DNA of 25,300 nucleotides from a virus, in IMG/VR virus record IMGVR_UViG_3300031772_000260, positions 1-25,300 of that record; one strand, 5' to 3'. This document shows, piece by piece, positions 2,167-20,863 of the stretch. The translations under genes and the position numbers were made by a program. Numbering within the stretch: the first letter of the stretch is position 1; every line of letters starts with the position of its first letter. The notes under the pieces are model-generated. The model did not search any database. It saw only the letters and a program-made list of their open reading frames with translations, and was not told where the DNA came from.

Positions 2167-2517
2167 GTGAAAAGATTAGTAAAAGAAAGTTTAGTAGAAG
2201 AACGATGGGTATCAACAGATACAGGTGCAGAACGTTATGCTAATTATCAATCTATTACTCCTGAATTAAAAGATGAAGATATTAAGGAAATGATTCCTCC
2301 TACTACAATCAAACTTTCTCCTGAAGAATTTAATAATTATGTCGAAAATTTAATACAGATGATTCCAAAATCTCCTATGTTAGCAATATATGTATTTAAA
2401 GAAGTAATGAAAGAACATCCGTATTTAAGTAAAAAACCAATAGGATTTAAAACAACAAATCCGTATGAACCTATAATAAATAAATTCTTAAAAAAATTTA
2501 AACCGTTAGAACATTAA
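2167..2517 (+). CDS. Small tail-cluster protein of unknown function, GTG start
   Basis: A 116-aa protein between the tube gene and a terminator, starting with GTG 11 bp after the tube stop. I do not recognise the family. Its first residues, M-K-R-L-V-K-E-S-L-V-E-E, closely resemble the start of the AAA+ ATPase coded at 10394-12043 (M-R-K-L-V-P-E-S-I-E-E), so it carries one of the recurrent N-terminal tags of this genome. The rest is helical and charged (region P-E-E-F-N-N-Y-V-E-N-L-I-Q-M-I) and ends in a lysine-rich stretch. Its position suggests a tail assembly or structural accessory; no function can be stated. Confidence 0.7.
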   Translation: MKRLVKESLVEERWVSTDTGAERYANYQSITPELKDEDIKEMIPPTTIKLSPEEFNNYVENLIQMIPKSPMLAIYVFKEVMKEHPYLSKKPIGFKTTNPYEPIINKFLKKFKPLEH

Positions 2518-8079: not shown

Positions 8080-8922
8080 ATGGGCAGAATTAAATCTTTG
8101 GCACTCACAATAAATGCGTTTGACGCATCAGAACTTTTAGAATCATTAATATTAGAAATTCGAGATCAAGTAGATTGGGTAGCAGCATTTTATCAAAAAA
8201 AATCTTATTGTCAAAATCCTATGGATTCTGCTGATATGGAAGAATTGCAACGATTAAAATCAATTGGTTTAATTAGTGAATTGATTGAATTTATACCCGA
8301 TTTTACTCGAGAAACACGACAACAAGAAACGGATAAAAGGAATATGGGAATTAATATAATGAGAGAAAAAGGGTATTCTCATATTTTAAATATCGATGCT
8401 GACGAATTTTATGATAAAGATCAATTTAAAGAAGCTAAGCAACAAATTAATGAAAAAGGCTGGCCTATTACATATTGGAGTTATGTTAATTATTATAGAG
8501 ATTTTGAACATTATTTAGTTTATCCGTTTAGGCCATTTGTTCCAGGCATACATTCTACTTACTTTACATATACTTTCAACGGGCCAGCTCCAGGACCCAC
8601 AGATCCCACTCGGCGTATCTTAAATCCGATGAATATAGGTACATACCTTTTTCCAGATGAAGTGATTAGAATGGGTCACGGTGCATGGGTTAGAAAAAAT
8701 ATTCGTAAGAAACTTGAAAATTGGAGTGCTAAAGATCATTTTCCAAAAGAACTAATAGATAAAGCAGTTGAAAGATGGGAAAATTGGAAAGAAAATGATG
8801 ATGGAACATGTCCAGATGCAATCATGTTGTTCAACGTTCCGGAAAATAGTGTACATGTAAATAAATTAAAAATACCTATTCATAAATTTAAAGTACCTTG
8901 GTTAATAGAAAAAGAAGCTTAA
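8080..8922 (+). CDS. GT-A fold glycosyltransferase (family 2-like)
   Basis: A 280-aa probable sugar transferase. The N-terminus begins with a strand L-A-L-T-I-N-A-F-D-A followed by E-L-L-E-S-L-I-L-E-I, like family 2 transferases that start with an 'xxxtxNE' strand. Residues 83-111 give the central signature: E-T-D-K-R-N-M-G then G-Y-S-H-I-L-N-I-D-A-D-E-F-Y, with D106-A-D-E109 as the metal/nucleotide-sugar binding DxD-type motif. A late M-G-H-G-A-W-V-R-K-N segment may supply the His that many of these enzymes use. The substrate cannot be read; phage versions modify DNA, virion proteins or host surface glycans. It is the last gene of the rightward block and its stop overlaps the stop of the convergent gene. 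Confidence 0.75.
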   Translation: MGRIKSLALTINAFDASELLESLILEIRDQVDWVAAFYQKKSYCQNPMDSADMEELQRLKSIGLISELIEFIPDFTRETRQQETDKRNMGINIMREKGYSHILNIDADEFYDKDQFKEAKQQINEKGWPITYWSYVNYYRDFEHYLVYPFRPFVPGIHSTYFTYTFNGPAPGPTDPTRRILNPMNIGTYLFPDEVIRMGHGAWVRKNIRKKLENWSAKDHFPKELIDKAVERWENWKENDDGTCPDAIMLFNVPENSVHVNKLKIPIHKFKVPWLIEKEA

Positions 8923-8931
8923 GCTTCTTTT
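8910..8931. terminator. Palindromic bidirectional terminator in overlapping stop codons
   Basis: AAAAGAAGC / TTAA / GCTTCTTTT is a perfect 22-bp palindrome that can fold into a 9-bp stem with a TTAA loop on either strand, with a T-run at each 3' end. It lies within the last codons of both convergent genes, whose TAA stops overlap at 8919-8922. Confidence 0.85.
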
Positions 8932-9401
8932 GTTTTCAATGTTAATGGTATATTTAATTCTTTACATTTTTTTCGAAATTTCCAATCTAGACTATGAATA
9001 GTTCTAGCTCCTATATTACCATTATAAATCCAACGGCCTTGATTATCCTGAAAAGTAATATAAATCATTTTTCCTGGGCCTGACGTTGAAAATCGTATAT
9101 TATATTTTCCTAATTGTGCTCTTGCGAATGTCATCCCCATCGAAGCATTAGGATCATTTTTAACATAAATATCATATTTTCTATTAAAGAAAAATGCAAC
9201 TGTATATCTACTTATTTTTTTTAATGCATCTAATGTTTCAATAACTTCTGAAAAATCTAGATCTTCTACATCAAAATTTATATAATCATTAAGTTTTTTA
9301 TAATTACTTTGTAATTCTATAAATTCAGGATGACCAATACCCATATCATGAATAGCATCTGAATCTTCAGTAAATTTTTCATTTATGAATTTTGCTCTCA
9401 T
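8919..9401 (-). CDS. DMGIG-tag protein of unknown function, 160 aa
   Basis: The protein begins M-R-A-K-F-I-N-E-K-F-T-E-D-S-D-A-I-H-D-M-G-I-G (residues 1-23), the same module found at the starts of the genes ending at 10330 and 14674. After it come a helical linker (residues ~30-65) and a beta-rich half (Y-N-I-R-F-S-T-S-G-P-G-K-M-I-Y-I-T-F, G-N-I-G-A-R-T-I-H-S-L-D-W). It is the last of the leftward block; its start overlaps the upstream stop as ATGA (9398-9401), so translation is probably coupled. I do not recognise the C-terminal domain. Its final K-E-A is coded by the terminator palindrome. Confidence 0.75.
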   Translation of the reverse strand: MRAKFINEKFTEDSDAIHDMGIGHPEFIELQSNYKKLNDYINFDVEDLDFSEVIETLDALKKISRYTVAFFFNRKYDIYVKNDPNASMGMTFARAQLGKYNIRFSTSGPGKMIYITFQDNQGRWIYNGNIGARTIHSLDWKFRKKCKELNIPLTLKTKEA

Positions 9402-10330
9402 CGATTGTTTTTATATTTTAATTCTTCTATGGATTCAGCAACAATTTTAGGATTTTCTTTCATAGCTGCTTTAATTCTTTCTTTTCTTTTGCTAGGAACA
9501 TTATCAGTTGCATCAAAGAAATAATTTACAGGCTCAGGAATAACAAGCGTAACTGTTAAAGGATCAACTTTTACCATATTTTGTGTTGCTTCATCTTGCA
9601 CAACATAATATTTAATAGCTCCACTATTTGTTATGATAATTTTTCTAACTATACCTTTTATTTCTTTTATTTCAGGAGTTGCATTAGATCTTACAGCATT
9701 TGCTTTAACCACAGAACCAATTTGTACTTGTTGTGTTTGATCAGGAGTTAAAGTAGGAAGTTGTTCTAATGTATGATTAAGAGGTTTAATTTCATAAGTA
9801 TACATCATGTTAGGACCACCTAAATTATTAGCACCACCAAAACCGCCTCTTGACGTCCCACCCATACCACCACGAAAACTGTTCATTGAAAATCCTGCGC
9901 CGTAACCTTCTTTTATCTTTTTAACTTTCCTTTTTTTCATATTATCATCTGATAATTTTTCATCTATATGATATATATTTCTAGAATTATTAATTAAATT
10001 TTCTTTAATACTTTTTTTATTAATTAGATCTCTAAATGGTCCAGATTGAAATTCAGAGTCAGCTGAATAATCTTTAATAGTTATATATTTTTGGTAATAA
10101 TAATTTAATTTTTCCCAATATTCAGTAAAAAATATTTCATGCGATCCCGTATTATTAATAATATCTTTTATATCTTTAACATTTAATATGTATTGCGCTA
10201 CAGTATATAACCACTCATAAAATTCTTCCTTTGTATTAAATGATCTTTTTACGTATAATCCTATACCCATATCTTTAATAGGATCTGATTCATCAGTAAA
10301 TTTTTCATTTATGTATTTTATAGGTCTCAT
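9398..10330 (-). CDS. DMGIG-tag protein with Gly-rich linker and SH3-like C-terminal region
   Basis: A 310-aa protein with three visible parts. Residues 1-24 are the shared tag (M-R-P-I-K-Y-I-N-E-K-F-T-D-E-S-D...D-M-G-I-G). Residues ~25-130 are helical and Asn/Lys-rich. Residues ~131-175 begin M-K-K-R-K-V-K-K-I-K-E-G and run into a Gly-rich linker (S-F-R-G-G-M-G-G-T-S-R-G-G-F-G-G). Residues ~200-275 look like a small beta barrel (V-Q-I-G-S-V-V-K-A ... G-I-V-R-K-I-I-I ... Y-Y-V-V-Q-D-E). The internal Met131 (9940) could be a second start, so this may be a fusion or a two-product gene. The end carries an A-E-S-I-E-E-L stretch. A strong hairpin lies just before the start. No known family recognised. 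Confidence 0.7.
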   Translation of the reverse strand: MRPIKYINEKFTDESDPIKDMGIGLYVKRSFNTKEEFYEWLYTVAQYILNVKDIKDIINNTGSHEIFFTEYWEKLNYYYQKYITIKDYSADSEFQSGPFRDLINKKSIKENLINNSRNIYHIDEKLSDDNMKKRKVKKIKEGYGAGFSMNSFRGGMGGTSRGGFGGANNLGGPNMMYTYEIKPLNHTLEQLPTLTPDQTQQVQIGSVVKANAVRSNATPEIKEIKGIVRKIIITNSGAIKYYVVQDEATQNMVKVDPLTVTLVIPEPVNYFFDATDNVPSKRKERIKAAMKENPKIVAESIEELKYKNNR

Positions 10331-10339
10331 TATAGTTGA

Positions 10340-10373
10340 AGAATCACAAGGATCCGAAGATCCTTGTGATTCT
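10340..10373 (-). promoter_or_regulatory. 15-bp perfect hairpin with UUCG loop just upstream of a start codon
   Basis: AGAATCACAAGGATC (10340-10354) and its exact complement (10359-10373) flank four bases. In the leftward transcript the loop is UUCG closed by C-G, the most stable tetraloop class. The stem ends 9 nt before the AUG at 10330 and 20 nt after the ATPase stop. No U-run follows in the leftward direction, so it is not a standard terminator; RNA processing, mRNA protection or translation control are possible. Confidence 0.6.
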
Positions 10374-10393
10374 ATTTGATAATTTTTGATATT

Positions 10394-12043
10394 TTAATGT
10401 CCCATGACATCTTCTCTACTTCCAAATTTTATTTTTCCGAATGCTTGTCTAAACATATCCATAGCTGGTTTGTATTTTTCTTTACCCTTTATGTCTCCAG
10501 TTTCTTCATGTATATAAGGATGTGTTTCTACTATAAGCCATAATGCTTTAGCTGCTAAAGAAGGATCTTCTAATTTTATGAAATATTCAATATAATTTTC
10601 GAGTTCTTTTGGCTTTAATTTCATATCTTTAGAAGCTGAACAAGCTGCTCCAATTAAAGCATTTGATTGTGCAACATCATATCCTGTTCCTTTTTTCTTT
10701 GGCATAGGTGCTTTTTTAGGATCAGTAAATATCATCTTAATTTCTTCTGGTCTAAATGATTCTAATAAAATTAAGAATGCAACAAACGCCTCAACAGTAG
10801 AAGAGTGGATCGTACCACCTATTACGTTTTCCATATCTGCTCTTGAAAATACAATATCGCCATAATCTTGGCATGCGCCTAACATTTTTGAAAGTGCTTC
10901 CCATGTACGAGGTGTCGTATTAACTTTTACAGTATTATCAAAGAAATAATAATGATCTCTATTAAAATCTACAAATGTAAGAATTCTATCATCTATTTTT
11001 GCGCCTTTACCCCATTCAATCCATTCATCAACGCCTGGAACAAAATTCCAGTGTTGCAAACGATTTGCAAGTGCAGAACCCATTTCTGTTTGACCGCCTT
11101 CAGGATCATCTAATTGTCGGTTAGATGCACATATAATAGCCCATTTACTTCCTAATTTTCTATCTCCAATTATTCTTTCATCAATTAATTTTAAACATGT
11201 ATTCTGAACTTCTGGTGTAGCTCTTGAAAGTTCATCTAAAAAAATAATTCCGCCTTCTCCCCAGTTTGCAATATCATTTCTTCTTGCATCTTCTTCAGGA
11301 TCTTCGGGAGTTGGTTCATATACAGGAAGCCAGTTTTTTGGAATATCTTTTGCTTCTGCGCCGCCGTGATCATATATTTTAATTGATGGTAACGACCAAT
11401 CGTCGGGCATCATTTTTGCAGTTTGAACATCTATACATCTATGGCCAGCACCTAAAGTTTTGATAACAGCTTTTGTGATAGCAGTTTTTCCAATTCCAGG
11501 AGCTCCCCAAATAATAGGTGCCATAAGTAATGGATTTCTGGTTTGCATTAATAATCTTTTAATAAGAAAATCAGCATTTACATTTCTAACTTTATCTTCT
11601 CCAGAGTAAGGTAATTTAACTCTTTCTTCATTAAGTTTTTTTCTTAATTTTCTAATACTTAAACTTTCTGATAATTTATGTTTTGTTTTATTTTTTGCAG
11701 CCTGTTCTTTATATTCTTTTTGTATTCTTGCTAACATAAGTTCACCGTGTCTATTTTTTGCTAATGAAGGTTCCATCGCTACATCGACATCGTTTGGAAT
11801 AAAATCAACAAAATTTCCTATATCAGGATCATTACACATTATGCCAATATTTGCTGGTACTACAGCAGGTATAGGTTTATCTTTATAAAATGCAGTAAAA
11901 AATTTACCTATTTTTTTAAAAACACCTTGTACGAGGCCCTTTGCTTTGTTAAACCACTGCTTAACATCTATAGCTTCATTTAATTTTTTACCATTAACCA
12001 CCTGTAAGGTTTCTTCAATCGATTCAGGAACTAATTTTCTCAT
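10394..12043 (-). CDS. MoxR-type AAA+ ATPase
   Basis: A 549-aa ATPase. Walker A is G-A-P-G-I-G-K-T at residues 180-187, Walker B I-I-F-L-D-E at 266-271, the sensor-1 Asn in I-I-C-A-S-N (308), and a candidate arginine finger in A-L-A-N-R-L-Q-H-W (R328). The stretch L-S-R-A-T-P-E-V-Q-N-T-C-L-K-L after Walker B is typical of MoxR proteins. The first ~150 residues are an unusual extension: M-R-K-L-V-P-E-S-I-E-E at the very start, L-N-E near residue 22, then L-S-E-S-L-S-I-R-K-L-R-K-K-L-N-E-E at 124-140. MoxR ATPases act with VWA partners to remodel proteins, and such a partner is coded immediately upstream in the same transcript (12081-14012). Confidence 0.88.
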   Translation of the reverse strand: MRKLVPESIEETLQVVNGKKLNEAIDVKQWFNKAKGLVQGVFKKIGKFFTAFYKDKPIPAVVPANIGIMCNDPDIGNFVDFIPNDVDVAMEPSLAKNRHGELMLARIQKEYKEQAAKNKTKHKLSESLSIRKLRKKLNEERVKLPYSGEDKVRNVNADFLIKRLLMQTRNPLLMAPIIWGAPGIGKTAITKAVIKTLGAGHRCIDVQTAKMMPDDWSLPSIKIYDHGGAEAKDIPKNWLPVYEPTPEDPEEDARRNDIANWGEGGIIFLDELSRATPEVQNTCLKLIDERIIGDRKLGSKWAIICASNRQLDDPEGGQTEMGSALANRLQHWNFVPGVDEWIEWGKGAKIDDRILTFVDFNRDHYYFFDNTVKVNTTPRTWEALSKMLGACQDYGDIVFSRADMENVIGGTIHSSTVEAFVAFLILLESFRPEEIKMIFTDPKKAPMPKKKGTGYDVAQSNALIGAACSASKDMKLKPKELENYIEYFIKLEDPSLAAKALWLIVETHPYIHEETGDIKGKEKYKPAMDMFRQAFGKIKFGSREDVMGH

Positions 12044-12080
12044 AGTATTATTTATTGTTATTTTTATTATATATTAAAAT

Positions 12081-14012
12081 TTACATTTCGCCAATTGATG
12101 TTTTTATAGCTTTTCCAAATGGAGCGGCCCATCCATCATTATCATATATTACCCAAATAAATTTATTTGCGTATTTTGGAGTTGCTGGATTTGATGCGTA
12201 ACCATCAGTTAAAAATATACAAAGGTTAATTGCATCATTATAATTCTTTTTTATCCAATCTAATGGTTTCTGGAAATTTGTTCCACCGCCGCCTTTAATA
12301 TTTTTAGGTTTCCATACTTTTGTACCTCTTTTAACAGTTTGTACTGAGCCTGGATCTACTCCATCATCAAAGAATAAAATAGTTATTTCTTTTATCCTTT
12401 TTGAGAATATTATATCATTAACTTCTCCGATAATTCTATCAAACGTATTTCCATGAAACATTGAACCAGATACGTCAACACAAACAACTACTTTTTTGAT
12501 TGCATCTTTTTTAGGTTTTTGACCACGTTTTAAATATTCATCACTTTTGTATAAGTGTTTTTTAGCTCCAAGCCTATATTGTTTTTCAGGAGATAATGCA
12601 GTTCCAACATATATTTTTAATAATGATTTCCACATAACAGTTCCTTTAAGAAGTTTTCCTAATTTTTGAATTAAAGAATCACCTCTTCCGCTGCCTGCTT
12701 GTTTAAGTTTTTCTGCTGATTTAATAATATCTCTTGCATTAGCTTCCCATTTAGATCTTCCGTCTTCACCTGTACGTATTTCATCATCATCATAGCCAGA
12801 AGCTCGAGCAATTTGTTCTCCTGTTCTAGTATCAATTATACCGCCACTTCTGCCTTGATCAGAATTTTCTAATTTTCGATGTATTCTTTTATTTTCACCT
12901 TCTACATCTTCTTCTGGTTGTTGAGAAGTTGGTTGTGCTGCGCCCTTTCCCGCGCCTTTAGCAATTTGTTTTGCATCTTTTACATCGCCACTTGCGTTTG
13001 TACTATCAGGAGCTGGCGCATTTTGTGCTTTTTCACTTTCTGCTTTATCTGCTTCTGAACTTCCACTTCCACTTCCTTTTCCTTCGCCAGCATCACTAAT
13101 AGGAGTTATTTCTCCCTTAGTATAACTTTTTTCATTTAATAATAGTCTTGGAAAATAATTTTCATTTATAATATCTACTTCATAAGTACCATCAGCGTTT
13201 ACTTGTGTAACTTGGCCTTTTTGACCAGTTGCTTTAATTTTAACTTTAGTGCCTACCGCAATATCGTTATTCCCTTGGCCTTGCCCTTGACCCTGTCCTT
13301 GACCTTGACCTTGTCCTTGCCCTTGACCTTGCCCTTGACCCTGTCCTTGACCCTGTCCTTGGCCTTGACCCTGCCCCTGGCCTTGACCTTGACCAGCACT
13401 TGGAGGCGGAGGAGGTAATTTAGGCATATTTTTTAATATATCATGATAAATTTGTTCAACGGGAAGATTTAAATATTTTTTATCATACAGTCCTTGAATT
13501 TCTTCCAAAACAAATTTTTCATCAAAATCATCTGTAGTATCTACAATTATAGGATTAATCTCTAGATCTGCTGCGATGTTAAATATTTTTTGATCAAACC
13601 CTTCTCCTCTTTGCATATGCATAAATATACAATGCATAATTTCATGAATTATAACGAAAATTTTTCCCATCCATGAAAGACCATCAGCAAATTCTGGATT
13701 AACAAATAATCTAACTCCATCTGTTGCCATAGTAGGTACTAGCCATGTATAAATAGTCGGATTCATTTCATGTACATAAGGACGATAAAGAGGAGATTGT
13801 GTAACTATTTTATATTTAGCTTTTTCCATCTCTTCTTTTACTTTCTTGACATTTATAACTTTTCCAGTATAAGGAGATACTGCTTCTTCCATATCTTCAA
13901 TTTTTGCACCCATAGGTATAGAAGGTAAAGGTTTTTTTGCTTCATCCAAGGTTACTCCAGATTTAAGTTTATATAAAAAATCTTCTAATAATGGATAATA
14001 ATTTTCGTTCAT
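12081..14012 (-). CDS. Metallopeptidase-like / VWA domain partner of the AAA+ ATPase
   Basis: A 643-aa protein with an N-terminal zinc-site motif I-I-H-E-I-M-H (H123-E124-x-x-H127) followed by N-I-A-A-D-L-E-I-N (145-153), as in the DUF2201-type putative metallopeptidase domain. Next comes P-P-P-P-P-S-A and a tract of Gly-Gln repeats (207-247). Residues ~252-305 look like an SH3/KOW-type barrel (V-G-T-K-V-K-I-K-A-T-G-Q-K-G-Q-V), then an acidic low-complexity linker. The C-terminal VWA domain shows the MIDAS motif D513-V-S-G-S, G-G-G-G-T (Thr578) and L-T-D602-G. Bacterial proteins of this build occur beside MoxR ATPases, exactly as here with 37 bp between the genes. It probably delivers substrates to the ATPase; peptidase activity is not certain. 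Confidence 0.87.
   Translation of the reverse strand: MNENYYPLLEDFLYKLKSGVTLDEAKKPLPSIPMGAKIEDMEEAVSPYTGKVINVKKVKEEMEKAKYKIVTQSPLYRPYVHEMNPTIYTWLVPTMATDGVRLFVNPEFADGLSWMGKIFVIIHEIMHCIFMHMQRGEGFDQKIFNIAADLEINPIIVDTTDDFDEKFVLEEIQGLYDKKYLNLPVEQIYHDILKNMPKLPPPPPSAGQGQGQGQGQGQGQGQGQGQGQGQGQGQGQGQGQGQGQGQGNNDIAVGTKVKIKATGQKGQVTQVNADGTYEVDIINENYFPRLLLNEKSYTKGEITPISDAGEGKGSGSGSSEADKAESEKAQNAPAPDSTNASGDVKDAKQIAKGAGKGAAQPTSQQPEEDVEGENKRIHRKLENSDQGRSGGIIDTRTGEQIARASGYDDDEIRTGEDGRSKWEANARDIIKSAEKLKQAGSGRGDSLIQKLGKLLKGTVMWKSLLKIYVGTALSPEKQYRLGAKKHLYKSDEYLKRGQKPKKDAIKKVVVCVDVSGSMFHGNTFDRIIGEVNDIIFSKRIKEITILFFDDGVDPGSVQTVKRGTKVWKPKNIKGGGGTNFQKPLDWIKKNYNDAINLCIFLTDGYASNPATPKYANKFIWVIYDNDGWAAPFGKAIKTSIGEM
13272..13394 (-). 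repeat. 6-bp tandem repeat coding (Gly-Gln)20-Gly
   Basis: Twenty and a half copies of a hexamer, CAA/CAG plus GGN on the coding strand, coding residues 207-247 of the VWA protein. Copies differ at third positions (GGT, GGC, GGA, GGG and CAA, CAG), so the dipeptide is kept while the DNA has drifted. It forms a flexible linker between the metallopeptidase-like domain and the rest. Confidence 0.9.
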
Positions 14013-14029
14013 ATTTTTTATTTTTTTAT

Positions 14030-14674
14030 TTAAATTTCTTTAATTATATTGCCTTTTACTTTACATTTATTTTTTATAGTAGTTTCTGACAAAATCTGTG
14101 ACGGTGAATAATGTATATCACCATATACTTCTTTTGGAAAATATTGTAAGGTTGTTATAGGATTGCTACATATTGATAAATTTCCTTTTATTATAGAAGG
14201 AATATATTCTAGCGTACTTAATTCATTATTATTTATATATAAAGATTCCCCTATAATTTCTGCTATACCTTCTAATGATTTTAAATTATTATAACTTGCA
14301 CCATAACTCTGTTTAACTACACGTGGACCAAATTGTAAATCTTTTAAATTATTGTAGCTACACATAAAAGATCCCGTTACACTATATGGACCACCTTTTA
14401 AACTTGTTAATTCATTATTATCACAATGAAATCCTCCAGATATATGATTAAATTTTATGTAAACTGGAAAATCAGTAAATCCTTTATCTGAAAGAAGTGT
14501 AGTATGATAAACATTAATTGAAAATTTTTTTGTAAATCTATAATCATTTATTCCTGCATTTTTTAACCATTCTTCAATACGGGATTTTAAACCAATACCC
14601 ATATCTTCAATAGGATCTCCGTTTTCAGTAAATCTTAAATATTGATTATATAAATGTTCTTTTAATAATTTCAT
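14030..14674 (-). CDS. DMGIG-tag protein with degenerate leucine-rich repeats
   Basis: A 214-aa protein. The N-terminus (residues 14-28) has R-F-T-E-N-G-D-P-I-E-D-M-G-I-G, the tag also carried by the genes ending at 9401 and 10330, here preceded by M-K-L-L-K-E-H-L-Y-N-Q-Y. Residues ~30-70 are a short alpha/beta linker (I-E-E-W-L-K-N-A-G-I-N-D-Y). Residues ~70-190 hold about five repeats of ~20 residues with the pattern 'G-x-F-x-C-x-x-N-x-L-x-x-L-x-x-x-P-x-x-V', for example F-H-C-D-N-N-E-L-T-S-L-K-G-G-P and F-M-C-S-Y-N-N-L-K-D-L. This fits a leucine-rich-repeat-like solenoid, likely a protein-binding surface. Function unknown. Confidence 0.75.
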   Translation of the reverse strand: MKLLKEHLYNQYLRFTENGDPIEDMGIGLKSRIEEWLKNAGINDYRFTKKFSINVYHTTLLSDKGFTDFPVYIKFNHISGGFHCDNNELTSLKGGPYSVTGSFMCSYNNLKDLQFGPRVVKQSYGASYNNLKSLEGIAEIIGESLYINNNELSTLEYIPSIIKGNLSICSNPITTLQYFPKEVYGDIHYSPSQILSETTIKNKCKVKGNIIKEI

Positions 14675-15742: not shown

Positions 15743-16711
15743 TTATTTTGATGATAAATCTTTTGCAAATAAATCATATTCTTTTTGTCTTCTAATAATT
15801 AAACCAGGATATTTTTTTGAAATACCCGATAATTTTATATTTTTTGCAGCCATTATATGATTATTATCTTTTAAGTGTTTTATAAATTCAGTTTGTCTAA
15901 ATCTAGAAATTCCCATATTATATGACATAGAAACCATTGCGTTAAACATATTCTGAGTTATTTTTATGTCTTTTCCTTCGGCCTTCCATTCTTTGAACAT
16001 TCTTTTAATACCATTTTCAGCTTTTTTAATATCAAGTGCAAATAATTTATTAGCTTCATTTAAAGTAATAATTTCTCCTAATTTGTATTTAGAAGTTCTT
16101 ATAGGTTCAGCGTGTCCATAACCAACAGTTATCATACCATCATTCTTTTTAATGAGTTTACCTTTTTTATCTTTAATAGTATAATTTATTATATATGGCA
16201 TTAATTTTAATTTTTCGCTTTCTTTTATAGAATTTTTTGCTTCTTCAGATGTTTTTACAGTTGCAATATCTATAGCCATTTCTACTATTTTATATGTTAT
16301 ATTATTTTTAAGTATAGAAAGAGGTTTAATATTTGTTATTTTAGTTAATTCGGGAAAGGATAATTTTTCGTTTTTAAGAATTTTTGATTTTATATTATCA
16401 ATTGTATAATGCGAAACTTCTGCCCATTGATTATTTTTAATTACAAAATTAGATAATAATATTACAGCCAAAATACTTGCTATATATTTTTTTAATTTTG
16501 AATTTGTTGTTTCATTGAATTTTTTTATTAAATTGTTTAATAATATTTTTTTATTTTTTATTTTATTTACTATATTTCGTATTTTTTCAACATTAAATTC
16601 TTCATTAATAGATTCTAATAATATATTTTCATATAAAAGATCATTATTAGCAATATTATAGATTTTAAAATATTCTATAGATTCATTTAAAGTTGTTGAA
16701 ACAAGACGCAT
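15743..16711 (-). CDS. GH24 (T4-type) lysozyme with long membrane-anchored N-terminus
   Basis: A 322-aa peptidoglycan hydrolase. The lysozyme domain covers residues ~155-318: E-S-E-K-L-K-L-M-P-Y with Glu166 aligned to T4 Glu11, M-I-T-V-G-Y-G-H (Thr195 aligned to T4 Thr26), an upstream D191, Q-N-M-F-N-A-M-V-S-M-S-Y-N-M-G (253-267) and G-L-I-I-R-R-Q-K-E-Y-D-L-F (303-315). The first ~150 residues are extra compared with T4 lysozyme. They are Asn/Lys-rich, include a hydrophobic segment at ~76-91 (Y-I-A-S-I-L-A-V-I-L-L-S-N-F-V-I) and start M-R-L-V-S-T-T-L-N-E-S-I-E, similar to other tagged proteins here. It could be the cell-lysis enzyme held by a membrane anchor, or a virion-associated lysozyme; the sequence does not decide. 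Confidence 0.88.
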   Translation of the reverse strand: MRLVSTTLNESIEYFKIYNIANNDLLYENILLESINEEFNVEKIRNIVNKIKNKKILLNNLIKKFNETTNSKLKKYIASILAVILLSNFVIKNNQWAEVSHYTIDNIKSKILKNEKLSFPELTKITNIKPLSILKNNITYKIVEMAIDIATVKTSEEAKNSIKESEKLKLMPYIINYTIKDKKGKLIKKNDGMITVGYGHAEPIRTSKYKLGEIITLNEANKLFALDIKKAENGIKRMFKEWKAEGKDIKITQNMFNAMVSMSYNMGISRFRQTEFIKHLKDNNHIMAAKNIKLSGISKKYPGLIIRRQKEYDLFAKDLSSK

Positions 16712-18522: not shown

Positions 18523-19347
18523 ATGAAAATTATGAATCATCAAAATATTTATGAATCTATAATTCAGAAAGCTAAATCTGAAAATAGAATTAAATTAAGA
18601 AAAAATCAAGAAAATTATGTTTATTATGAAAATCATCATATAATTCCAAAATGTTTGAATGGTAGTAATGAAGAATATAATAAAGTTTTATTGACTGCAA
18701 GAGAACATTATGTATGTCATAAATTATTAACATATATTTATCCAAATATTAGAGGGCTAGTATTAGCGTTGCAAAGATTTAGATATTCAAAAAAATTAAA
18801 GTTGTATAATTTAACATCTAGAGATTATGCATTTATCAAAAAATTAATATCTTCAATTCCTATGGAAGAAAAAACAAAACAAAAAATAAGAAAGCCAAGA
18901 ACAGAAAAAACAAAACAAAAAATGAGAAAATCTCATAAATCTTTTTCTCTAGAAGCAAGAAAGAATATGAGTAATGCGCATAAAGGAATAAAACATTCAC
19001 AAGAAACTATAAGAAAACAAAGTGAATCTCGTAAAGGAAAACATTATATTAAAAAAAATAAACATTGTTGGATGTTTAGCATGAAATTAAATATATCTCT
19101 TTTAGTTAAAGAAAATGAAATACAAGAATATTTAGATAATGAATATCTTCTAGGAAGATTAGTATCTATAAATACTCGAAAACAAATGAGTAAATCCCGA
19201 AAAGGAAAAAAACATTCTGAAGAAACAAAGAAAAAACAAAGTGAAATTAAACTGGGAAATAAAAATCCATTTTTTGGAAGAAAACATTCGGCTGAAACAA
19301 TAGAAAAATTTAAAAAAAGAATACCGTGGAATAAAAGAAAACTATAA
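18523..19347 (+). CDS. HNH homing endonuclease with NUMOD3-like repeats (copy 1)
   Basis: A free-standing homing endonuclease on the strand opposite its neighbours. The HNH core is N-H-H-I-I-P-K-C-L-N-G-S-N-E-E (His pair, then N) with L-L-T-A-R-E-H-Y-V-C-H-K-L-L completing the site, within residues ~37-70. The C-terminal part has NUMOD3-like DNA-binding repeats (H-S-Q-E-T-I-R-K-Q-S-E-S-R-K-G and H-S-E-E-T-K-K-K-Q-S-E) and ends I-P-W-N-K-R-K-L. The second ATG at 18532 matches the start of the paralogue at 20114, so the true start may be 18532. It sits in a gap between two leftward genes and does not visibly interrupt either. Confidence 0.88.
   Translation: MKIMNHQNIYESIIQKAKSENRIKLRKNQENYVYYENHHIIPKCLNGSNEEYNKVLLTAREHYVCHKLLTYIYPNIRGLVLALQRFRYSKKLKLYNLTSRDYAFIKKLISSIPMEEKTKQKIRKPRTEKTKQKMRKSHKSFSLEARKNMSNAHKGIKHSQETIRKQSESRKGKHYIKKNKHCWMFSMKLNISLLVKENEIQEYLDNEYLLGRLVSINTRKQMSKSRKGKKHSEETKKKQSEIKLGNKNPFFGRKHSAETIEKFKKRIPWNKRKL
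18530..18564 (+). repeat. 35-bp direct repeat (copy 1) at HNH gene start
   Basis: Identical to 20112-20146. It spans the shared start codon and the first eleven codons (M-N-H-Q-N-I-Y-E-S-I-I) of the two HNH genes and could be a substrate for recombination that deletes the gene between them. Confidence 0.9.
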
Positions 19348-20111: not shown

Positions 20112-20146
20112 TTATGAATCATCAAAATATTTATGAATCTATAATT
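20112..20146 (+). repeat. 35-bp direct repeat (copy 2) at HNH gene start
   Basis: Exact copy of 18530-18564, spanning the start of the second HNH gene. Confidence 0.9.
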
Positions 20147-20863
20147 AAGAAAGCACAATCTCAAAATAGAGTTAAGTTAAGGAAAAATCAAGAAGATTAT
20201 ATTTATTATGATGATCATCATATACTTCCAAAATGTTTAAACGGAACAAATGAGAGAGAAAATTTAGTTTTATTAACAGCAAAAGAACATTATGTTTGTC
20301 ATAAACTATTAACTTATATTTATCACGAAAACCGAAAAATAGCTTGTGCATTTCATAAAATGTCATTTAGTAAAAGATATGGAACTATTATTTCTTCCAG
20401 AGATTATGAATACGCAAGAAAATTACTTAGTATAATACCTGTATCAGTAGAAACATGTAAAAAATTAAGTAAAGTAGGAAAAGGCAGACCTTCTAGTAAA
20501 AAAGGAAAAAGTTTTGATCAATTATTTTCAGAATTATACGGTGAAGAAGTTGGCTTACAAAAATCAGTAGAATTAAAACAAAAAATAAGAGAAAACTCTA
20601 AAGATAGAAAATGTTCAAAAGAAACAATCGAAAAACATAAAACACATATTCCATGGAATAAAGGTAAAAAAGATTGTTTTTCTAAAGAAACATTGGAAAA
20701 AATGAGTAAATCGCACTTAGGAATTAAATGTCATGATGAAGAATTTAAGAAACACCTCGGGATTAATAATGTTTTATATAAAACTGGAACAACTCATTCA
20801 TCTCAAACAAAGGAAAAAATGCGTATGTCACAACAAAAAAGAAGGGAAAGAGAAAAATTATAA
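20114..20863 (+). CDS. HNH homing endonuclease with NUMOD3-like repeats (copy 2)
   Basis: Paralogue of the gene at 18523. The first ~75 residues are about three quarters identical by eye (HNH core D-H-H-I-L-P-K-C-L-N-G-T-N and L-L-T-A-K-E-H-Y-V-C-H-K-L-L). The C-terminal DNA-binding part differs, with NUMOD3-like pieces C-S-K-E-T-I-E-K-H-K-T-H-I-P-W-N-K-G-K and F-S-K-E-T-L-E-K-M-S-K-S-H-L-G-I-K. Divergence confined to the targeting half suggests that the two recognise different sites. It converges on the nuclease gene at 20858, overlapping it by 6 bp at the stop codons. Confidence 0.88.
   Translation: MNHQNIYESIIKKAQSQNRVKLRKNQEDYIYYDDHHILPKCLNGTNERENLVLLTAKEHYVCHKLLTYIYHENRKIACAFHKMSFSKRYGTIISSRDYEYARKLLSIIPVSVETCKKLSKVGKGRPSSKKGKSFDQLFSELYGEEVGLQKSVELKQKIRENSKDRKCSKETIEKHKTHIPWNKGKKDCFSKETLEKMSKSHLGIKCHDEEFKKHLGINNVLYKTGTTHSSQTKEKMRMSQQKRREREKL

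Follow-up and report, generated by a model that had tools for sequence, protein, structure and literature searches.

A repeated peptide of T4-like huge phages as a probable modular signal for head targeting and processing of single and polyprotein cargo

Why would phage proteins with different cargo domains begin with nearly the same short peptide? The question is raised by a complete 25.3-kb IMG/VR record, itself not cut from a larger genome, referred to here as the window, i.e., the whole stretch of DNA that was analysed. The window aligns collinearly with the 33-60 kb interval of a viral contig that is 405 kb long (IMGVR_UViG_3300027899_000001, hereafter G001). Three proteins carrying a tag that ends in DMGIG had been predicted, and all three were confirmed as minus-strand ORFs. 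Their N-termini read MRAKFINEKFTEDSDAIHDMGIG in the 160-aa protein (8919-9401), MRPIKYINEKFTDESDPIKDMGIG in the 310-aa protein (9398-10330), and MKLLKEHLYNQYLRFTENGDPIEDMGIG in the 214-aa protein (14030-14674). The tags and the first and third genes are as follows.

8919-9401, minus strand: tagged gene 1, 160 aa, conserved cargo
9333-9401, minus strand: tag 1, leader MRAKFINE (9378-9401), predicted cut after I-N-E
9333-9377, minus strand: part of tag 1 predicted to be retained, KFTEDSDAIHDMGIG
10259-10330, minus strand: tag 2, leader MRPIKYINE (10304-10330), predicted cut after I-N-E
10259-10303, minus strand: part of tag 2 predicted to be retained, KFTDESDPIKDMGIG
14591-14674, minus strand: tag 3, MKLLKEHLYNQYLRFTENGDPIEDMGIG, in which the cut site is degenerate and the canonical P1 is not Glu
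14030-14674, minus strand: tagged gene 3, 214 aa, LRR-like cargo, weak PHROG matches

The I-N-E that was expected before K-F is present in copies 1 and 2, but copy 3 reads LYNQYLRF at the canonical place. The G001 allele of tag 3 reads KEILYE-NNYMSFTETGDP, and in other alleles of gene 3 LYE is retained a few residues upstream of the canonical place; judging by sequence, the window copy of tag 3 would be a poor protease substrate. The LRR-like label originally given to this third protein is based on weak PHROG matches together with its relatives, and LRR-like modules related to it recur behind the tag in G001. For the 160-aa protein, the family search gave no convincing family. Its ortholog in G001 is 69.8% identical and also tagged, and the leader class of tag 1 (M-[RK]-A-x-x-[ILV]-x-E) is shared by 32 of the 120 N-terminal tags.

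At the DNA level, the run reported as common to the first two copies, TCAGTAAATTTTTCATTTA, was found exactly at 9367-9385 and 10293-10311, and shuffled DNA gave a mean of 0.20 matches to it even when three mismatches were tolerated. Compared with copy 1 over 60 bp, copy 2 is 88% and copy 3 is 70% identical (repeat family D6). A degenerate DNA pattern for D-(P/A)-I-x-D-M-G-I-G matched the window three times, at the three tags, and had 0 matches in 100 shuffles. The codons at fixed tag residues vary synonymously (GGT, GGA, and GGC make up 40, 39, and 19% for Gly), and this freedom at fully conserved residues indicates selection on the peptide and not on the DNA. The idea that the conservation is mainly that of a repeat or recombination element in the DNA was thus rejected.

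Other features of the window were also noted. Two related plus-strand ORFs (18523-19347 and 20114-20863; 86% DNA identity over 213 bp) lie opposite to their neighbours, have several relatives in G001, and are probably homing endonucleases, being HNH-like by eye. In a 643-aa protein, 12-bp units at 13260-13415 encode (GQ)n between a DUF2201 metallopeptidase-like and a VWA domain; its PHROG name, HNH endonuclease, looks like a misannotation.

The proposed scan of relatives for the tag and its cargo revealed far more tags than the three of the window. The scan of viral contigs with the D-(P/A)-I-x-D-M-G-I-G pattern yielded 103 stretches. Because several contigs overlap and share samples, duplicates were removed by sequence (G003, for example, repeats part of G001 and has an identical capsid protein), and 168 distinct open frames with a total of 231 distinct tags remained. 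With a slightly wider pattern, 68 tags were counted in G001 (405 kb), 46 in the contig G005 (83.6 kb), and 13 in G002 (162 kb), and the reversed control pattern gave no tags on the same contigs. Within the first 21.7 kb of G005 (L036), 41 tags follow in a row on one strand, with about one tagged module per 500 bp. Degenerate tags (DLNVG, DMNIG, QTMGIG) occur on further genes of G001 at 152-157 kb, so the strict counts are lower bounds. The G001 gene counts are approximate, since ORF calling relied on a simple longest-ORF script that was run over the first 400 kb in pieces of 20 kb. Relatives whose capsid proteins are 70-84% identical have at most one tag each, on contigs as long as 133 kb, so the tag is dispensable to this head type. 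A cellular origin was rejected, as a broader pattern had 26 matches in 257 Gb of genomes, and those translated were chance-like, without the upstream [ILV]xEKF. In GenBank phages, the protein search at the sensitivity used did not find the tag and gave weak chance-like matches only. A known family was likewise rejected, with no model covering the tag found among those of Pfam and PHROG, and the literature search found no mention of the DMGIG peptide.

The tag consists of three parts: a leader, an [ILV]-x-E step, and the stretch KF-T-E-D-S-D-P-I-x-D-M/L-G-I-G. When the tags were aligned on S-D-P-I, [ILV] was found at position -8 in 93%, N at -7 in 64%, E at -6 in 95%, K at -5 in 85%, and F at -4 in 97%, and D-P-I-x-D-[ML]-G-I-G was near-invariant. 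The whole [ILV]-x-E occupies -8 to -6 in 219 of 232 tags (94%), N-terminal and internal alike, and the chance rate of this loose motif is roughly 1.5-2% of positions. Among the 13 exceptions without it at the fixed offset, many have the step displaced by a small insertion. The leader (MKLVREH or MRAKF) is conserved at true N-termini only: positions -15 to -9 hold 1.4-2.2 bits in the 120 N-terminal tags compared with 0.5-1.2 bits in the 64 internal tags, in which E, K, and F are conserved to 98, 89, and 98%, respectively. From this comparison, it appears that the leader is needed once per polypeptide and [ILV]-x-E-K-F...DMGIG at each module boundary. The original prediction of an N-terminal leader therefore holds for the leader itself, but the tag also occurs internally and is repeated in polyproteins. 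Moreover, its most conserved stretch, the DMGIG part (F, S-D-P-I, D, G-I-G), sits downstream of the predicted cut. As KF...DMGIG lies mostly beyond that cut, the tag would be more than a removed leader. In the AlphaFold model of a single-module relative, residues 1-20 (pLDDT 51-59) are outside the well-folded cargo.

Complete frames with several tags (n = 38) contain 2-6 strict tags each, or as many as 7 when the matching is relaxed, and the median distance between tags is 122 residues. In 36 of these frames, no more than 45 residues separate the frame start from the first tag. The cargo (227 modules of at least 30 residues) falls into 112 strict clusters, and the largest families are helical (30), ankyrin-like (27), LRR-like (24), and SH3-like (12). 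Helical, ankyrin-like, and SH3-like modules were found both at the protein terminus and preceding another tag. The LRR-like module was always the last one in its tagged protein (24 of 24, e.g., 14030-14674 in the window and 309694-310515 in G001). Pfam searches of 123 tagged ORFs returned mainly ankyrin repeats and no peptidase domain, PADLOC matches were ankyrin-driven or marginal, and Foldseek gave no match to the cargo fold at E ≤ 0.001 for either AlphaFold model.

The 310-aa protein of the window is a fusion in which the tag and a helical module stand ahead of an older core. Its parts are listed below; here and in the following, an arrow marks the place of the cut.

9956-10258, minus strand: helical cargo module, approximately residues 25-125, kin to the largest cargo family
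9908-9916, minus strand: I139-K140-E141↓G142, a further predicted protease step where the tagged module meets the older core
9398-9907, minus strand: older core, Gly-rich and then a small beta-barrel

The family of the helical module has 30 modules elsewhere, alone or inside polyproteins. The sequence at the junction site is LKE↓G, IEE↓G, VKE↓G, ITE↓A, or VEE↓A in relatives, and in the AlphaFold model the junction lies in a low-confidence, probably flexible stretch. The orthologs of the older core are mostly untagged and start near this site, with LKE↓GYGAGF, SIIEE↓GYGAGF, VKE↓GYGAGF, and ITE↓AYGAGF in G001, L164, L168, and L169, respectively. The window fusion retains the former start MKKRKVKKIKE↓GYGAGF in frame, and L167, which is a similar fusion, retains MRAKKVEE↓AYGAGF. 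These untagged orthologs and in-frame old starts indicate that the module was added upstream and that the old [ILV]-x-E step was kept. The SH3-like label of the original prediction belongs to this core, as a weakly supported SH3/KOW-like resemblance. At or near the C-terminus of the core family (the window and orthologs L164-L169), K-[IL]-V-[RPA]-E-S-[IL] repeats the N-terminal leader motif and could perhaps be a docking peptide.

Leaders of the same type occur on untagged genes as well. A leader followed by [ILV]xE heads 11 untagged G001 genes compared with 0.53 expected, and 3 of the 11 are degenerate tags. Over all untagged G001 genes, the general enrichment of N-terminal [ILV]xE is weak, and the specific leader patterns alone are enriched. 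In the window, the following cases were found.

12011-12043, minus strand: leader-type start MRKLVPESIEE↓T of an AAA/MoxR-type ATPase (10394-12043); MKKLVPESIEE↓T in G001
16601-16609, minus strand: I-N-E step (LLESINE↓E) in the N-terminal extension of a phage lysozyme (15743-16711); LLQESLNE↓S in G001
2167-2199, plus strand: leader without DMGIG, MKRLVKESLVE↓ERW, in the ORF 2167-2517; MKYVKEYLNE↓EW in G001

A candidate for the enzyme acting at these steps is a gp21-type protease. Peptidase_S77 was detected above the Pfam cut-off in G001 and G003, fused to a scaffold-like region and adjoining the Gp23-type capsid gene, and an S77 protease is also present in relatives of their capsid protein. 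In BLASTP, the protease matched T4 gp21 with E = 7e-12 over the catalytic region (GEL(D/N)HP, SSR). The window contig itself carries no capsid or protease gene, and we infer both from the collinear relative. The capsid proteins have HALNE↓ in 10 of 10 close and HSINE↓ in 4 of 4 distant relatives. By eye, this L/I-N-E matches T4 LTE↓AEIGGDHGY, the automatic alignment being shifted in the divergent stretch; in the match by eye, the G001 capsid protein reads L-N-E↓A where T4 gp23 is cut. The T4 gp23 cut site was deduced from the 456 residues of the mature chain and the 521 of the full protein. Furthermore, the protease-scaffold fusion contains 10 [ILV]NE compared with 1.04 expected (Poisson p 1.6e-7), which ranks it first among 435 untagged G001 ORFs, and the corresponding proteins of relatives contain 9-12. 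An untagged 181-aa protein beside the tagged-gene block (G001:157439-157984, minus strand) has five [ILV]NE (0.24 expected) and may be a core or scaffold protein. Far from the main capsid gene, G001 encodes another Gp23-like protein, which is shorter (308 aa; G001:278804-279730, plus strand).

The original prediction had proposed a T4-like targeting leader with an (I/L)-x-E prohead-protease step. Four computed results support this proposal, namely the [ILV]-x-E in 219 of 232 tags, the gp21-type protease with the gp23-type capsid protein in the clade, the L/I-N-E of the capsid proteins, and the [ILV]-N-E enrichment of the protease-scaffold fusion; packaging and cutting are its predicted part. 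We hypothesize, with somewhat better than even confidence, that the tag serves a T4-like huge phage as a modular signal for head targeting and processing, on single and on polyprotein cargo. As it contains an apparent prohead-protease site, the tag probably marks cargo for loading into the head and for trimming or cutting there. The leader (M-K-x-V-[RK]-E-[HYSN]-[IL] or M-R-A-x-x-[ILV]) would dock the protein to the prohead core, as with the T4 capsid targeting sequence (CTS). The gp21-type protease would cut after [ILV]-x-E, mostly [IL]-N-E, and this would leave a common mature N-terminus, KF(T/S)E(D/E)SDPIxD(M/L)GIG, on every cargo. In polyproteins, a single leader would bring a series of modules into the head, the internal tags would be cut so that the modules come apart, and the products would probably enter the host along with the DNA. 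A more tentative extension, to which we give rather less than an even chance, is a virion-delivered polyprotein with up to seven proteins behind one leader, parted in the prohead, in which the DMGIG N-terminus would be a second signal. That this signal might be for head retention or for portal exit is a guess.

The strongest conservation lies downstream of the supposed cut, and the tag is missing from close relatives with the same capsid type. Both observations would also suit a peptide that docks to a target other than the head, such as a phage organelle, a replication complex, or a host protein, in which [ILV]-x-E-K-F binds and is uncut. However, docking of this kind would leave unexplained the leader at the N-terminus only and the E-K-F at every internal junction, the [ILV]-N-E that the capsid protein contains and that is enriched in the protease-scaffold fusion, and the leader with [ILV]xE but without DMGIG on other genes, and we regard it as unlikely. 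Less likely still is a polyprotein linker cut in the infected cell by another protease, by which early multi-domain proteins would give rise to anti-host or anti-defence factors; the ankyrin, LRR-like, and SH3-like cargo does resemble interaction modules, but no other protease candidate was identified and the motif agrees with the site at which capsid maturation is predicted in these phages. An expanded paralogous family, with its N-terminal peptide kept by descent and by recombination between similar DNA and with no common sorting function, would agree with the DNA shared by the first two window copies and with tag counts ranging from 0 to 68 between contigs, but it is just as improbable given the free synonymous codons and the 227 modules in 112 strict clusters.

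Head targeting and processing by the tag would be of practical use, because the contents of huge-phage heads are normally learned by proteomics only. If the hypothesis is true, genome sequences would directly give the cargo lists (one 405-kb relative has 68 tags), two recombinant proteins would be enough to test polyprotein processing by the prohead protease, and the tag could be used as it stands to load chosen proteins into large phage heads.

By capsid protein, the nearest named phages are the Lak huge phages of Prevotella (48-50% identity), and the head is of the T4-like huge-phage kind in both. Lak phages reportedly recode a stop codon, and a protein search with the standard code read did not find the tag in them. 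Similarly to the giant phages SPN3US and phiKZ (gp245 and gp175 proteases), in which many head proteins are cut after Glu, cuts after Glu are predicted here, and the SPN3US paralogs gp53 and gp54 have an identical 15-residue N-terminus (PMC5694885). In contrast, the cut motif in SPN3US is A-x-E and mostly long propeptides are removed (PMC10052503), and the available parts of these reports contain no repeated tag between retained domains. Among known concepts, polyvalent proteins (PMC5512222) come nearest to delivered proteins with several domains; they are multi-domain phage proteins for which packaging and injection are predicted, and some of them are processed. They are large and multi-enzyme, some with their own peptidase domain, whereas the proteins described here are made of small modules with one uniform peptide between them, and the Pfam search of the 123 tagged ORFs did not show the combination of disparate enzymatic domains and an own peptidase. 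The N-terminal 10 residues of T4 IPIII are sufficient for targeting and packaging, processing is controlled by positions 8 and 10, and many of the packaged T4 internal proteins pass into the host (PMC9026906). Like the CTS of IPI, IPII, IPIII, and Alt, which is cut by gp21, the tag has a short N-terminal leader common to unrelated cargo that is ended by a hydrophobic-x-Glu step, and a gp21-type protease and a gp23-type capsid protein are present in G001. Unlike with the CTS, a conserved part of 15 residues would remain on the predicted product. The mature regions of the T4 internal proteins are divergent (PMC9026906), whereas conserved sequence follows the predicted cut here, a difference that is not strictly defining. 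Neither a retained conserved part nor polyproteins are known for the internal proteins of T4; in the phages described here, the signal is repeated within polyproteins and is carried by dozens of cargoes per genome, compared with few in T4.
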